This document shows, in pieces, positions 45,822 to 53,524 of a DNA stretch of 64,000 bases (its first letter is position 1; every line of letters begins with the position of its first letter). The translations under genes were made by a program, and so were the position numbers. The notes below the pieces were generated by a model. It searched no databases. It was not told where the DNA came from and worked only from the letters and a program-made list of their open reading frames with translations. Origin of the DNA: Planctomycetaceae bacterium (lineage in GTDB: Bacteria; Planctomycetota; Planctomycetia; Planctomycetales; Planctomycetaceae). The stretch is from NCBI GenBank assembly GCA_015485495.1, contig WFTL01000125.1:1-64000 (forward strand), read 5' to 3'.

Positions 45822-47174
45822 ATGACCAGTTCTGACACAGAAACTCCAGGGCACACACGGCCGGCCGACAGCGAAGTCTTCGATCCGCTGGGCGAAGATC
45901 TGAAAGCGGAATTCATCACGCTGCGCATTCGCTGGCTGGGACTGGCCGTGGGTTTTTTCATTGTCAACGTCGGCAGCCGTCTGGCCGGTTCGGAACCGCG
46001 CAGCCAGCTGGCGCTCAATGCCATCCTCACCCTGGGCATCGTGTATGCGTTCGTGGATACCTGGTGGAGCTTCCGAGGGAAAGTCTTTCTCGCTCAGTTT
46101 CGCCCGGTCGTTTCCGTGATGGAAGCGCTGTTCATCGGCCTTTTGTGCTTTTTCGATGAAGGCGTGTCCAGCCCGTTTCGCTTCTATTACTTCCTGTCGC
46201 TGATGGTCTGTGCCATCCGCCACCCGCCGGCGATGACCTGGATGACGCTGGGACTGCATTCACTGAGTTACTGCGTGCTCGGCGTGACAGCCACAGACAT
46301 GAATCCCGCCACGACCTTCACTCTGGGACTGACGGTGCTGTTTCTGGCGTGGGGCACCTGGGCCATGAATGCGCTCACCTGGCTGCTGAAATCCGCCGCC
46401 GTGCGGCTGGAAACTCTGAACGCCCGGCTGCGCGACCACCAGGCGACTCTGGAATCGAAGATCGAAGAGCGAACCCGGGCCCTCCAGGAATCGCAGGCCC
46501 GCCTGGTCCAGCAGGAAAAACAGGCGGCCTTCGGCCTGCTGGCCGCCGGGATCGCTCACGAAGTGGGCAATCCTCTGGCATCGATCAGTTCCATCGTGCA
46601 GATGCTCAACCGCCGCAGCCAGGACGACTACACGGCCGGCCGGCTGCACATGGTCGACGCTCAGCTCAGACGCATTCAGAAAATCCTTCGGGAACTGGTC
46701 GGGTTCAGCAGACCGGCGTCGCAGGACGTCACCGCAGTGGATGTCCACGCAGCCATCACGGAAGCCCTGAACATCGCCAAGTACTACAAACGCTGGAAGG
46801 GCAAAACGGTTGAAACGCATTTCAGTCCCGGCATGCCCGTGATTCGCACCGTTTACGATCAGCTTGTGCAGCTCGTCCTGAACCTCATCATGAATGCACT
46901 CGACGCCACAGAAGAAGGAGCGAAAATCATTGTTCAGACAGATGTCCTGCCGGACGATGAAAAAATCGCCATCACGATTTCTGATGAAGGCCACGGCATT
47001 CCTCAGGAGCTGCAGGACAAAATCTTCCGTGCGTATTTCACCACCAAATCCACAGGAACCGGGCTGGGACTGTTCGTCTGCCAGCAGCTCGCGGAAACGG
47101 AACTCGGAGGCAGCATTGAACTGGTCCACTCCGATTCTTCCGGAACCACGTTTCGGATCCTGCTGCCTTCCTGA
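45822..47174 (+). CDS. Membrane sensor histidine kinase
   Basis: The 450-residue protein has about six N-terminal membrane segments (residues about 38-188) with no large periplasmic sensor domain. A coiled-coil linker (LNARLRDHQATLESKIEERT) follows, then a HisKA domain with phospho-acceptor His246 in GIAHEVGNPL. The HATPase domain has the N box LIMNALDA, G1 DEGHGIP and G2 GTGLGLFV. HEVGNPL with a coiled-coil is the NtrB/ZraS-like pattern. No response regulator is adjacent; the HExxH lipoprotein gene follows 40 bases downstream on the same strand. The stimulus may be sensed by the membrane helices. Confidence 0.92.
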   Translation: MTSSDTETPGHTRPADSEVFDPLGEDLKAEFITLRIRWLGLAVGFFIVNVGSRLAGSEPRSQLALNAILTLGIVYAFVDTWWSFRGKVFLAQFRPVVSVMEALFIGLLCFFDEGVSSPFRFYYFLSLMVCAIRHPPAMTWMTLGLHSLSYCVLGVTATDMNPATTFTLGLTVLFLAWGTWAMNALTWLLKSAAVRLETLNARLRDHQATLESKIEERTRALQESQARLVQQEKQAAFGLLAAGIAHEVGNPLASISSIVQMLNRRSQDDYTAGRLHMVDAQLRRIQKILRELVGFSRPASQDVTAVDVHAAITEALNIAKYYKRWKGKTVETHFSPGMPVIRTVYDQLVQLVLNLIMNALDATEEGAKIIVQTDVLPDDEKIAITISDEGHGIPQELQDKIFRAYFTTKSTGTGLGLFVCQQLAETELGGSIELVHSDSSGTTFRILLPS

Positions 47175-47214
47175 AAGTGCTGACCACCCGGTTTCCACAG
47201 GCGGACGGTTCGCG

Positions 47215-48696
47215 ATGCGCGGGCTGAGCGTCATGGTTTTTCTGCTGGTCTGCGCAGGCCTGTTCGGATGCCGGCATTCCGCGACTGATTCCGCAGAGAA
47301 TCCCGCACCGCCGGACCATTCGTCCGACCGACAGCCTGCCGACCCCTGGAAAGCCGCTGCCGCACCGGTTCCTGCTGCTTCGGAGTCGGAAACTGCTGTT
47401 TCGGAGCCCGGCATCCGTGAAAAAACTGGAAGTGTCCGGACCGGAAACACGTATCGAACCGATCAGCCGCCGTTCGAAACCGACGCGGCGGCTCTTCAGA
47501 AAAGCGGCATCCGACGACTGGATGGACGCCATGTGGTTCTGCTGACAGACCTTCCGGCAGAGGCGGTGCACGACATTCCCGGCCTGGTCGATCGCCTGTA
47601 CGATCGACTCAGCCGGGACTGCGGCAGCCCGGCGGAAGAACGAAGCGGATCTGTGTTTCAGGCAGTCATCTGTCTGATGGAGGATCCCGAGCGTTTCCGG
47701 ATCGCGGGCCTGTTTCCGGATGAAGCCCGCCGAATGAAACACGGCCGACAGATCGGCTACCGCGCCTGGGTCCGCGTGCAGGATACCGACTATTACACGC
47801 GGCACCTTGTCCTGCACGAGTTCGTTCATGTCTATATGACGTGCGATGTGCTTCTTTCCGACCCGGCTCCCCGCTGGTTTGCCGAAGGTGTCGCCGAACT
47901 GTATGCCACTCATCAGACGTCCGAATCGCAGGTCCGGTTTGCCGTTCTTCCGTCGTCGTTCGAAGGCTTCGACGGATGGGGCCGGATTTCGTCCGTTCGC
48001 CGGCAGCGCCGGAATGCCGAAGAGAACGGCGCCCCGGTTCAGTCGCTGCCCTCCCTGGCCCAGGTGATGTCGGACCAGCCGGTGACATCAGCCGATGGAG
48101 ACGGGTATGAGTGGTGGTGGGCACTGGCGTGGATGCTCAGCCGCCATCCGGATTATGCGCTCCACTGGCACAACATGTGTCAGGGGCGGTCCGGCACGTC
48201 TGTCCGGAATTCTCCCATCACAGTCAACGGCCCCCTGTCCGGCCGACTGGCCGCCGACTGGCTGCTGTTCGCCGACACTCTGTGTGAAAATTTCGACCCG
48301 GACCGGTCCTTCTGCCGCCTCGCAGAACATCGCGATTCCCCGTCCGATACGCTCTGCGTGCAGGCGGATCGAAGCTGGCAGGACACCGGCTGGGACATCC
48401 CCGCGGGGCAGGCGGTCGTCGTGGAATGTTCAGGACGCTGCGTTCTGCGGACAACCACGGCACCGTGGGATGCCGGACCGGACGGTATCACGCTGGAGTA
48501 TCATCGAGGTCAGCCGCTGGGACGGCTTCTGGCGGTCTTTGTCGCCCCGGACGGTATCTCCACCCGCTTCCCGGCAGGCCGATCTGCCGTGCTGACACCG
48601 GAATTCGGCGGACGCCTGTGGCTTCAGATCAACGACAGTGCCGCTTCCCGAAGCGACAATCGGGGGGAATACACGGTCCGCATCCACCGACCATGA
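47215..48696 (+). CDS. Lipoprotein with HExxH metallopeptidase-like domain
   Basis: The 493-residue precursor has a lipoprotein signal (VFLLVCAGLFGC, Cys about residue 19), followed by a Ser/Ala/Pro/Glu linker. The middle domain has HEFVHVYM (the HExxH zinc motif, about residue 205) followed by PRWFAEGVAEL. The Glu downstream of Trp-Phe-Ala is the third-ligand pattern of peptidase MA-like gluzincins. About 130 C-terminal residues are beta-rich. I cannot name the family with certainty. The start at 47215 is chosen for the signal peptide; the frame is open upstream inside the kinase gene. It lies 40 bases after the histidine kinase gene. Confidence 0.75.
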   Translation: MRGLSVMVFLLVCAGLFGCRHSATDSAENPAPPDHSSDRQPADPWKAAAAPVPAASESETAVSEPGIREKTGSVRTGNTYRTDQPPFETDAAALQKSGIRRLDGRHVVLLTDLPAEAVHDIPGLVDRLYDRLSRDCGSPAEERSGSVFQAVICLMEDPERFRIAGLFPDEARRMKHGRQIGYRAWVRVQDTDYYTRHLVLHEFVHVYMTCDVLLSDPAPRWFAEGVAELYATHQTSESQVRFAVLPSSFEGFDGWGRISSVRRQRRNAEENGAPVQSLPSLAQVMSDQPVTSADGDGYEWWWALAWMLSRHPDYALHWHNMCQGRSGTSVRNSPITVNGPLSGRLAADWLLFADTLCENFDPDRSFCRLAEHRDSPSDTLCVQADRSWQDTGWDIPAGQAVVVECSGRCVLRTTTAPWDAGPDGITLEYHRGQPLGRLLAVFVAPDGISTRFPAGRSAVLTPEFGGRLWLQINDSAASRSDNRGEYTVRIHRP

Positions 48697-49151: not shown

Positions 49152-49463
49152 CGAAGAACTCCTGCAGGCAGCAGGCCAGCGAATTTCAGGGCAGATTCAA
49201 CCGACGATTCGACCCGACCGTTGGTTATATCGACCTGGGCCCCCTGGGAACGGGAGTCCGGAGACGCCGCTCCGGTCGGTTTCCTGGCGGCCGGTCAGGT
49301 TGTGTGACGACCGCGGCGACGCGTTTCCCGCTGAGAGGTCGTGTAGAAATGACAATCTGCACGGGAATGATGTAAGAAATGCAGGCCCAACGGCGGACCG
49401 TCCCCGACACAGCACCAACAGACGACTGTCGACGCAACCCGTGTCCTGCCTGTAGGTTACGAT
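49152..49463. other. Intergenic stretch upstream of hairpin array
   Basis: About 310 bases between the small membrane protein gene and the hairpin array. No credible reading frame was found. The sequence TGTAGGTTACGAT (49451-49463) directly precedes the first hairpin and could include a -10 box, but no convincing -35 partner is seen. Confidence 0.4.
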
Positions 49464-49557
49464 GCGGGTTCGTATCCCGCCTCGGAATAGCGCCCTATTG
49501 GACCGGCATTTGCTGCCGGTGGATTCCGTCGGCGAAAGGATTCGCCGGCGGCGAATC
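49464..49557 (+). promoter_or_regulatory. Array of four consecutive perfect hairpins upstream of an HExxH gene
   Basis: H1 pairs GCGGG with CCCGC (49464-49480). H2 pairs AATAG with CTATT (49486-49499). H3 pairs ACCGGCA with TGCCGGT (49502-49520). H4 pairs CCGTCGGCGAA with TTCGCCGGCGG, 11 base pairs with one G-U (49526-49551). The segment TTCGCC in H4 can instead pair with GGCGAA at 49550-49555, giving an exclusive alternative stem (49539-49557). The array ends 33 bases before the ATG at 49590 and may be a regulatory leader or a small RNA. Confidence 0.45.
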
Positions 49558-49589
49558 ATCAAGAGTGGAACCCAACCTGTGGGCCGAGC

Positions 49590-50792
49590 ATGGATGCTCT
49601 GAATTTCCGGACCCTGCTGGTGTCCGTGACGCTTCTGATCAGTACCGGCGCTTCGCACCGAACGGCGAATTTCGTGGTGACCGCTTCCAGCCCGGCTGAA
49701 GCCCGGGCGGTGGGAAGAGCTGCGGAAATCTATCGGCGCCGCCTGGCACTCTACTGGACGGGACGGGAACTGCCCCGATGGGAACGTCCCTGTACGATCC
49801 GAGTGAAATCCGGCGCTCTGGGAGCCGGCGGGCAGACGACGTTCCAGTTCATGGGGACACAGGTCGGAAACTGGCGGATGTCCGTTCAGGGATCTTCAGA
49901 ACGGATTCTGGATTCGGTTCTGCCGCACGAAATCAATCACACGGTGTTCGCGTGTTATTTCCGGAGGCCGCTGCCGCGGTGGGCGGATGAAGGAGCGTCG
50001 ACTTTGTTCGAACACCGTTCTGAACAGCAGATCCAGCTCGATCGCCTGAACAGAGTGACCCGCAGTGGACGAGGCTACATTCCGCTGAAACGGCTGCTGA
50101 ACATGAAGCAGTACCCTTCCGATCAGCGATCCATGCTCATTCTGTACGCTCAGGGATTCGGCCTGGTCGATTTTCTCATGTATCAGGGCGGCCCGAAAAC
50201 GTATCTGAAATTTCTGAATGACGGCCATCGCTACGGCTGGGAGAACGCCATCCGGCGTCACTACAACCACGAAGGCATCGACGCTCTGGAAACCGACTGG
50301 AAAAGCTGGGTCCTGGCCGGCATGCCCAGGTACGGGCATGCACCGGAAGAACTTGTGGCGATGATCCATGCGACCACCCGCGATGTGGCCCGACCGGTGG
50401 CGGCCCGGGGGCGTTCACGGAGACAGCGTCCGTCCCGGCCGGCAGCCGAGTCCGGCCGGTTTCCGGGATCACGTGAACTCGATCCGCCGACGACGGCATC
50501 CCGTCCACAGCGGTCTGCGGCAGACACCGCAGCCGTCGAAGCCCCGCTGCCGGTGAAGACTTCCGAACAGGTCCCGGACGGCCCCATCGTACCGGCTGTA
50601 TTCGGTTCCGGCCTGCTGCCGTCGGATTCCGCAACAGTTTTTCCGGAAGGCAGCCATCTGGAACCAACGGGGCATCGCGAAGCACTGCAGCAGCCGAAAC
50701 CCGAACAGATGCTTCTCCCCTGGAAACGCAGCCGGGAATCCGGTGCCACCCCGCAATGGGCCGGATTTCCGGGACAGAAAGGATTGTTCTGA
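49590..50792 (+). CDS. Secreted HExxH (peptidase MA-like) protein
   Basis: The 400-residue precursor has a short hydrophobic signal (LLVSVTLLISTGAS). In its core domain, HEINHTVF (HExxH) is followed by PRWADEGASTLFE, again the gluzincin/peptidase-MA pattern with a downstream Glu. The last 150 residues are Arg/Ser/Pro-rich and likely disordered. It has the same catalytic layout as the lipoprotein at 47215, but the two sequences are clearly different. The ATG at 49590 is used; no strong Shine-Dalgarno precedes it. A strong terminator hairpin lies at 50883. Confidence 0.75.
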   Translation: MDALNFRTLLVSVTLLISTGASHRTANFVVTASSPAEARAVGRAAEIYRRRLALYWTGRELPRWERPCTIRVKSGALGAGGQTTFQFMGTQVGNWRMSVQGSSERILDSVLPHEINHTVFACYFRRPLPRWADEGASTLFEHRSEQQIQLDRLNRVTRSGRGYIPLKRLLNMKQYPSDQRSMLILYAQGFGLVDFLMYQGGPKTYLKFLNDGHRYGWENAIRRHYNHEGIDALETDWKSWVLAGMPRYGHAPEELVAMIHATTRDVARPVAARGRSRRQRPSRPAAESGRFPGSRELDPPTTASRPQRSAADTAAVEAPLPVKTSEQVPDGPIVPAVFGSGLLPSDSATVFPEGSHLEPTGHREALQQPKPEQMLLPWKRSRESGATPQWAGFPGQKGLF

Positions 50793-50882: not shown

Positions 50883-50927
50883 GGCGAGTCACCAGTCCCG
50901 CATGGTGGCTCGCCTTTTTTCTTTTCC
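50883..50927 (+). terminator. Rho-independent terminator
   Basis: GGCGAGTCACCA (50883-50894) pairs with TGGTGGCTCGCC (50903-50914), 12 base pairs with one G-U and an 8-base loop, followed by TTTTTTCTTTT. This is the clearest intrinsic terminator in the window, for the HExxH gene. Confidence 0.85.
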
Positions 50928-51267: not shown

Positions 51268-52887
51268 TCAGTACAGTTCTTCGTCGCCACCGCCGGCAAC
51301 GCCGTTCTTGCTTTCCTTGGGTTTTTCGGCGATGAGAGCATCGCTGGTCAGCAGCAGGGTGGACACGCTGGCAGCATTCTGCAGAGCCGCACGCGTGACC
51401 TTTTTCGGATCGATGACACCGGCTTTCACCATGTCTTCGAACTTATCGGCGGCAGCGTTATAGCCGACATTGCCTTCCTGCTCAGCCACTTTCTCGCAGA
51501 TGACGCTTCCGTCGACTCCGGCGTTGTCCGCGATCTGCGTCAGTGGTGCCCGGCAGGCCCGCACGATGATGTTGTAGCCGACCTTTTCGTCGTGGGTCAG
51601 GCGGCCCGGTTTGACGGCCGTGGAGGCCCGCAGCAGGGCCACACCGCCGCCCGGCAGAATGCCTTCTTCCACTGCGGCCCGGGTGGCATGCAGAGCATCT
51701 TCCACGCGTGCCTTCTTTTCCTTCATCTCGCTTTCCGTGGCCGCGCCGACATTGACCTGAGCCACGCCGCCGGCCAGCTTGGCGATCCGTTCTTCCAGCT
51801 TTTCGCGATCATAATCGCTCGTGCTGTTTTCCAGCTCCCGCCGAATCTGTTCGATGCGGGCCTGGATGTCGGCCTTCTTTCCTCCGCCTTCGACGATGGT
51901 CGTGTTGTCCTTGTCGACGACAATCTTGCGGGCCGTACCCAGATCCGTCAGTTCGATGTTTTCCAGCTTCACTCCGAGATCTTCGAAGATCGCCTGGCCA
52001 CCCACCATGATGGCGATGTCCTGGAGCATGGCTTTGCGGCGGTCTCCGTAGCCCGGTGCCTTGACGGCGGCCACCTTGAAGGTGCCTCGCAGCTTGTTGA
52101 TCACCAGCGTCGCCAGAGCCTCGCCTTCGACGTCTTCGGCGATGATCAGCAGGCCCTTGCCGCTGTTGACGACCTTTTCCAGAACCGGGACCAGATCCTT
52201 GATGTTGCTGATTTTCTTTTCGTGAATCAGCACGTAAGCATCTTCCAGCACGCACTCCATGTTTTCAGAATCCGTCACGAAGTACGGCGACAGATATCCG
52301 CGGTCGAACTGAAGTCCTTCCACGACTTCGAAGTTCGTTTCCAGACTTTTGCCTTCTTCCACGGTGATGACGCCGTCCTTGCCGACGTGTTCCATGGCGT
52401 CCGCGAGAATCTGTCCGATTTCCGCATCGCCGTTGGCTGCCACCGTGCCGACCTGAGCAATCGCTTTACGCGTGCGGCATTCGGTCGCCATGTCCGCAAG
52501 CTGTTCCACGATGTCTGAAACAGCCTGATCCATGCCCCGCTTCATTTCCAGAGGGCTGACACCGGCCACGACAGCCTTCAGGCCTTCCTTGTAGATGGCT
52601 TCGGCCATCACTGTTGCCGTCGTGGTTCCGTCTCCGGCCACATCCGACGTCTTGCTGGCAACTTCGCGCACCATCCGGGCGCCCATGTCTTCGAACTTCT
52701 CCGACAGTTCGATTTCCCGCGCCACCGTGACGCCGTCTTTCGTGACCGTGGGCGACCCGAAGCTCTTTTCAATGATGACATTCCGCCCTTTCGGTCCGAG
52801 TGTGACTTTGACGGCACGTGCCAGTCGGGACACACCCCGCCGCATCGCTTCCTGGGCTTCCTGGTCGAAGGCGATCATTTTGGCCAT
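51268..52887 (-). CDS. groL: 60 kDa chaperonin GroEL
   Basis: The 539-residue subunit forms the double-ring ATP-dependent folding machine. It has the canonical start [13 protein letters not shown], the nucleotide-binding [22 protein letters not shown] and [16 protein letters not shown], and [16 protein letters not shown] in the equatorial domain. The C-terminus ends in GGDEELY without the repeated GGM tail found in E. coli and many other GroELs. AGGAG lies 10 bases before the ATG at 52887. The groES gene is upstream on the same strand with an unusually long 297-base gap that contains a terminator-like hairpin. Planctomycetes often have several groEL copies. Confidence 0.97.
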
Positions 52888-53054
52888 GACTGCATTTCTC
52901 CTGTTTTCTGCTCTTTCAGCAGGACACACGAAACGGAAAACACTGACATCGTTCCCCTGACGGCCGCAGCCGACAGGATCGGTCAAAGCACCGGACAGGG
53001 ACCCATCAGACGGTCGTCAGGCGGCACTTCTGACCTGCCAGGCATTCCTCAAAA

Positions 53055-53184: not shown

Positions 53185-53499
53185 TCACACGGTCGCCAGA
53201 ATGTCGCTCTCCCGCAGCAGCAGGTAGTCTTCATCCCCCACGCTGATTTCGTCGCCCGCGTACGAACTGAAAATCACTTTGTCACCTTCCTGAACGGTCA
53301 GAGCGATCCGTTCGCCCTTGTCGTTGACGTGTCCGTCTCCCACCGCCACGACTTCGCCGCGCTGCGGCTTGTCTTTGGCCGTGTCCGGCAGCACGATCCC
53401 GCCGGCCGTCGTTTCTTCCGCTTCTGCACGCCGCAGAACAACCCGATCTCCCAGCGGGACAATGCGGATGCCGCCGGAAGGCCCCTTCTTCTTCGCCAT
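53185..53499 (-). CDS. groS: 10 kDa co-chaperonin GroES
   Basis: The 104-residue co-chaperonin has [12 protein letters not shown] near the N-terminus and the mobile-loop segment [37 protein letters not shown] and [14 protein letters not shown] follow. All are standard for GroES, which caps the GroEL ring. Two adjacent ATGs exist (53502 and 53499); the second has better spacing from AGGAG (6 against 3 bases). A short basic N-terminal extension ([10 protein letters not shown]) precedes the domain. No CIRCE operator was found in the leader; instead there is a long stem-loop. Confidence 0.95.
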
Positions 53500-53524
53500 C
53501 ATTCTCTCCTGACGTCATTGGAAC

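Follow-up and report, generated by a model that had tools for sequence, protein, structure and literature searches.

The window analyzed here, a 64,000-nucleotide stretch of DNA from a member of the Planctomycetaceae, contains on its forward strand a gene for a secreted HExxH metalloprotease of the Peptidase MA superfamily (49590–50792 +, 400 aa). Its product has an apparent signal peptide, carries HEINH at residues 113–117, and weakly matches Peptidase_MA_2, as do 21 of 23 orthologs; no NCBIfam equivalog scored above its cut-off for the product. An alignment-based structure model (pLDDT 90.5) most closely resembles bacterial collagenase peptidase domains and M30 lugdulysin, with modest TM-scores. 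Of 59 genomes, 58 have a relative of the gene, as do 136 of 150 genomes of the family. An intrinsic-terminator-like hairpin followed by a T run (50883–50914 +) ends the unit, which suggests that the metalloprotease transcript consists of one gene. A groEL-like gene (51268–52986 −, Cpn60 by Pfam) and, upstream of it, a groES-like open reading frame recognized by eye (53185–53502 −) lie on the opposite strand and converge on this unit. On the other side, a second HExxH protein (HEFVH; 46894–48696 +), probably a lipoprotein starting near 47203, adjoins an AtoS/ZraS-like histidine kinase (45822–47174).

Ahead of the metalloprotease gene lie four inverted repeats, H1 (49464–49480), H2 (49486–49499), H3 (49502–49520) and H4 (49526–49551 +), which a first-pass annotation had taken together as a candidate cis-regulatory RNA. 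The repeats do exist where claimed, between 49464 and 49551, with stems of 5, 5, 7 and 11 bp; the H4 stem includes one G-U pair, closes the loop AGGA and can be extended to 49522–49557 if one bulge is allowed. Folding against shuffled sequences, a check that the annotation had suggested, gave a divided answer. The folding energy of the 94-nt block is −43.6 kcal/mol vs −36.6 ± 3.8 kcal/mol for dinucleotide shuffles (z −1.8, with 15 of 300 shuffles as low), and a wider 161-nt stretch that includes the repeats has a z of −2.4, so the excess of stability over chance is modest; H1 and H2 by themselves do not differ from chance (z −0.2, with 116 of 300 shuffles as low). Neither H1 nor H2 is visible in two same-genus relatives. 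The block had also been called the densest RNA structure in the window, which it is not, because 71 of 2,720 tiled 94-nt windows (both strands) fold more stably. The absence of any known riboswitch or tRNA was borne out: no Rfam match in the window reached its gathering score, a relaxed Rfam search of the region returned chance-level matches only, and we rejected an Rfam family or riboswitch identity on these zero matches. A tRNA or tRNA remnant, considered because H1 resembles a T-arm, was likewise rejected, as ARAGORN finds none and H1 is not seen in the same-genus relatives.

The nature of H3 became apparent from 89 upstream regions of family-level orthologs of the HExxH gene. Anchoring these on the H3 sequence yields TGG-N8-TTTGC, that is GG-N10-GC, the −24/−12 signature of sigma-54 promoters. 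In the window, the element TGGaccggcatTTGCt lies at 49499–49514 +, with its GG at 49500–49501 and its GC at 49512–49513, and H3 overlaps it; scored as TGGACCGGCATTTGCT, it agrees with the consensus TGGCACG-N4-TTGCW at 10 of 12 positions. Under a threshold of at least 9 of 12 that also demands the GG and the GC, the element is present in 60 of 89 orthologs vs approximately 6% of shuffles, and a reverse-strand control gave 4 of 89. The pairing of H3 behaves otherwise: across 72 distinct promoters its pairs match no better than shuffled columns, and all six tested pairs are kept in only 7. Because the sequence is conserved and the pairing is not, we read H3 as a conserved promoter DNA element whose palindromic look is a local coincidence, and we rejected it as an RNA hairpin. 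The host genome encodes one RpoN and gives 19 matches to sigma-54 activators, 15 of them strong, and a sigma70 promoter upstream of the gene was rejected, none being found by consensus. Taken together, sigma-54 control of the metalloprotease gene is well supported by comparative sequence evidence. Sigma-54 regulons have been surveyed in Planctomycetia, with many targets, and csrA of Pirellula is among the genes reported to have such a promoter (PMC12316311); we found no discussion of the metalloprotease gene in the portions of that survey available to us.

From the position of the −12 element, the sigma-54 rule predicts a transcription start at 49525 (+), which places H1, H2 and H3 upstream of it. 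H1 and H2, at chance and ahead of the predicted +1, together with an H3 that belongs to the promoter, argue that the four repeats are not one RNA module. That H1–H4 nevertheless form a single cis-regulatory RNA array is, in our view, highly improbable: in its favor is the modest excess of folding stability (z −1.8 to −2.4), and against it stand the chance-level H1 and H2, the unconserved H3 pairing, the lack of an Rfam match and a predicted +1 that falls downstream of H3. The first-pass idea of a cis-regulatory RNA thus survives for H4, joined by a start-codon hairpin described below, and fails for H1, H2 and H3. We judge H1 and H2 to be chance repeats outside the element, and the locus offers a case of a promoter mistaken for an RNA hairpin in a reading by eye.

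The orthologs also share a palindrome, TTGYARNNNYTRCAA, mostly 120–190 bp upstream of the −12, which matches at least 11 of 13 positions in 54 of 89 orthologs vs approximately 1% of mononucleotide shuffles. Two candidate enhancer sites are present in the window. Site A (GTGTAGAAATGACAA, 49341–49355), of the same palindrome type, matches 10 of 13 consensus positions, is centered 165 bp upstream of the −12 and lines up by eye with the copy in L003/L004; site B (ATGTAAGAAATGCAG, 49370–49384) is centered 136 bp upstream, and inspection by eye aligns it with TTGTAGGAATTGCAA in L003/L004, which lies 134 bp from the −12 there. These copies are moderate and imperfect, and a strict composite pattern of enhancer plus promoter, TTGTARNNNYTRCAA-N108-138-GG-N8-TTGC, has no match in the window. 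Searched in 150 genomes, this pattern occurs at 23 places, 17 of which are, by coordinates, directly upstream of the metalloprotease gene. Reversal of the pattern gave 9 matches, and shifting the sigma-54 spacing by two bases gave 3, none at the metalloprotease gene. An activator site within the expected range of about 80–200 bp upstream is therefore indicated by the ortholog palindrome and by the gene-specific composite pattern.

Because the predicted +1 is 49525, H4 would be the first structure of the mRNA, a leader hairpin at its very 5′ end. Its loop, AAGGAU, is of the CsrA type, with the ANGGA core at 49536–49540. Between +1 and the start codon, the orthologs contain 60 ANGGA sites vs 32.8 in shuffles; of 69 leaders, 20 have a best ANGGA hairpin of 6 bp or more vs approximately 1.3 expected, and 25 lack ANGGA ahead of the start codon. 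The pairing was examined at 37 distinct sites located at +8 to +35 and picked regardless of pairing. Of these, 30 retain the innermost pair vs 17.6 when shuffled (0 of 5,000 shuffles as good), and most outer pairs are also above shuffles, in a comparison whose shuffle controls leave the relatedness of the sequences in place. Two-sided changes occur at all seven pairs among 17 clear hairpins, with a covariation score of 0.97 vs 0.30, values that come from hand-picked cases and so from a selection biased toward pairing. The alignment of orthologs that the first-pass annotation had called for therefore brought covariation for H4 and none of the conserved pairing looked for in H3. The H4-type hairpin is strongest within the window’s own clade.

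A fifth hairpin, GAGC[AUGGAU]GCUC (49586–49599 +), had been overlooked; it covers the start codon. Of the 89 family orthologs, 75 have an AUGGAN start with this hairpin, and the start hairpin is found also in further families of the class. Among the 75, the non-coding positions −2 and −1 are G and C without exception, and GC directly follows AUGGAN in 73. Positions −3 and +9 pair in 58 of 75 vs 44.9 when shuffled (0 of 2,000 shuffles as good), through A-U, G-U and C-G pairs, and among 65 distinct sequences 86.9% of cells are paired vs 80.3% in shuffled and 23–41% in slid registers; as for H4, shuffling leaves the kinship among the orthologs uncorrected. The motif could in principle reflect conservation of an N-terminal Met-Asp/Glu-Ala at the protein level rather than RNA, and the near-constant Ala codon (GC in 73 of 75) would fit such an account. 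We nonetheless regard it as improbable, given that the invariant −2G and −1C are non-coding, that +9, a third codon position, covaries with −3, and that conservation is poor over the remainder of the signal peptide. The orthologs that lack AUGGA at the start are also informative: 10 of 14 have ANGGA within −30 to +6 vs 2.0 expected, so that the core shifts upstream when the peptide changes. Because ANGGA recurs near the start where AUGGA has been lost, the comparison argues that the feature under selection is probably ANGGA and not the peptide. Overall, comparison of orthologs gives good support to H4 and the start-codon hairpin as real, conserved RNA hairpins.

Start hairpins of the form GCATGGANGC are not general among the genome’s genes; a large genome-wide regulon of such hairpins was rejected, most of 30 inspected places being intragenic or chance. 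In another family of the class (L208, L209, L210 and L211), the sigma-54 site and a palindrome persist (e.g. TGGCACACCACTTGCG), and in place of the start hairpin there is a leader such as GGTCAAGGGAATG, which has AGGGA ahead of the start.

What might bind these hairpins? CsrA/RsmA recognizes ANGGAN where it is displayed in a hairpin loop, and repression of glgC involves two sites, with a CsrA dimer reaching from a leader hairpin to the ribosome-binding region (PMC7652899). In the metalloprotease leader, ANGGAN is looped in both hairpins (AAGGAU in H4, AUGGAU at the start codon) on covarying stems, and there are thus two sites, one at the translation start, with GGA cores 54 nt apart. CsrA is present in all 59 genomes examined, with six genes in the host genome; among the relatives G000–G058 it has multiplied to between 2 and 16 copies per genome. 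The two hairpins look like a CsrA docking site, and we infer that CsrA is the ligand of both and that it represses, rather than activates, the metalloprotease gene. One counterpoint is the H4 stem, which at 11 bp is longer than those of typical SELEX ligands; SELEX-derived CsrA ligands typically have stems of at most 4 bp (PMC7652899). It is thus conceivable that the sigma-54 promoter stands and that the hairpins bind another protein or act without a ligand, through 5′-end stability, start-codon masking or thermosensing. Conservation of hairpins and loop together with a ligand that is putative would be compatible with this, as would the long stem. We consider it unlikely, if still a serious contender, because both loops fit the CsrA core ANGGAN, the ANGGA core stays near the start even where there is no hairpin, and CsrA is encoded in every genome. 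A purely structural element is disfavored in particular because the GGA would be unnecessary.

We propose, as the probable reading of these conserved features, that the metalloprotease gene is under two layers of control, with sigma-54 and an enhancer-binding protein switching on transcription and CsrA gating translation. The enhancer-binding protein, at palindromes ~136–165 bp upstream, would activate RNA polymerase–sigma-54 at TGG-N8-TTTGC (49499–49514), and transcription would begin near 49525. The 5′ end of the resulting mRNA would be H4, whose AAGGAU loop would serve as a high-affinity CsrA-type site, and a second, weaker hairpin would hold the start codon in its AUGGAU loop. Docked on H4, a CsrA dimer could then span 54 nt to reach the start-codon hairpin and block ribosome loading until withdrawal of CsrA allows translation. 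CsrA could instead act as an activator, or another ligand could take its place.

The six composite-pattern matches away from the metalloprotease gene extend this picture. Three fall inside coding sequence; the other three precede non-coding stretches that end in terminators and that have no credible Rfam match. Two of these three non-coding loci served to build a covariance model, which was searched in 150 genomes and has matches in 22, including a copy in the host genome (G000:C153:45570-45782, equal to L269:1501-1713 +; E 2e-39). Two of the matches, L285 and L286, are weak and look false, which leaves 20 credible members (L265–L284) of an apparently undescribed, sigma-54-dependent small-RNA family. 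All 20 have a sigma-54 element scoring 9–12 of 12, with the −12 located 7–16 nt (mostly 12) ahead of where the model begins, and all 20 have the palindrome, 143–192 bp upstream of the −12. For 18 members this promoter evidence is independent of the composite pattern behind the first two, because the RNA model alone found them. The RNA, of ~175–240 nt, consists of hairpins with UGAGAA loops, GAGAGA linkers and an intrinsic terminator, with covarying stems. CUGAGAA occurs 38 times in the members vs 0.3 expected, and GGA is depleted (59 vs 105 expected). A CsrA-sponge role was rejected as unlikely because of this depletion, as was pairing with the metalloprotease mRNA, which is no better than with shuffled mRNA. 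A further non-coding stretch, L227:1663-1867 + (G024:C87), lies behind the same enhancer and a strong sigma-54 site; its genome, G024, has no metalloprotease ortholog. The stretch is GAGAG-rich, has a long terminator hairpin and is unmatched by the small-RNA model.

CrcZ is a sigma-54-driven sponge RNA, and the small RNA resembles such RNAs in logic. As a tentative possibility, one enhancer-binding protein and sigma-54 may run a small clade regulon composed of the CsrA-gated metalloprotease and a ~200-nt sponge RNA for an RNA-binding protein. In such a regulon, the repeated CUGAGAA and GAGAGA would provide a sponge of CsrB- or CrcZ-like logic with a new motif that avoids GGA.

Little has been described of how Planctomycetota control their genes post-transcriptionally, despite many CsrA paralogs, and our literature searches surfaced no planctomycete CsrA target. 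The locus provides a concrete and deeply conserved candidate for one, in which the start codon would supply the ANGGA core. The sigma-54 promoter with its enhancer motif is also searchable in other genomes and has already led to the unannotated small-RNA family.

The mechanisms proposed here are of known kinds; what appears to be new is that one conserved metalloprotease gene combines them and that its initiation codon is itself part of the proposed CsrA core. With NtrC-family sigma-54 promoters, the locus shares the GG-N10-GC −24/−12 element and a palindromic enhancer 100–190 bp upstream, and the host genome encodes the RpoN and AAA+ activators of such systems. TwoAYGGAY RNA (PMC2864571) has, as its name indicates, two AYGGAY hairpin loops, which resemble ANGGAN. 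In the part of that report available to us, it comes from human gut samples, gammaproteobacteria and Clostridiales and is listed as not cis-regulatory; the window gave no Rfam match to it, in a search that may not contain its model, since the table gives no Rfam number. The closest comparison is with E. coli glgC (PMC7652899), which likewise has a leader hairpin with a GGA in its loop and a second site at the translation start, and for which the dimer bridging that we propose for the metalloprotease leader is described. Unlike in glgC, the metalloprotease start codon itself forms the ANGGA core, no clear Shine-Dalgarno sequence is needed in most orthologs (one is present in 20 of 75), and H4 would sit at the extreme 5′ end of a transcript made from a sigma-54 promoter, as a putative site of CsrA binding.
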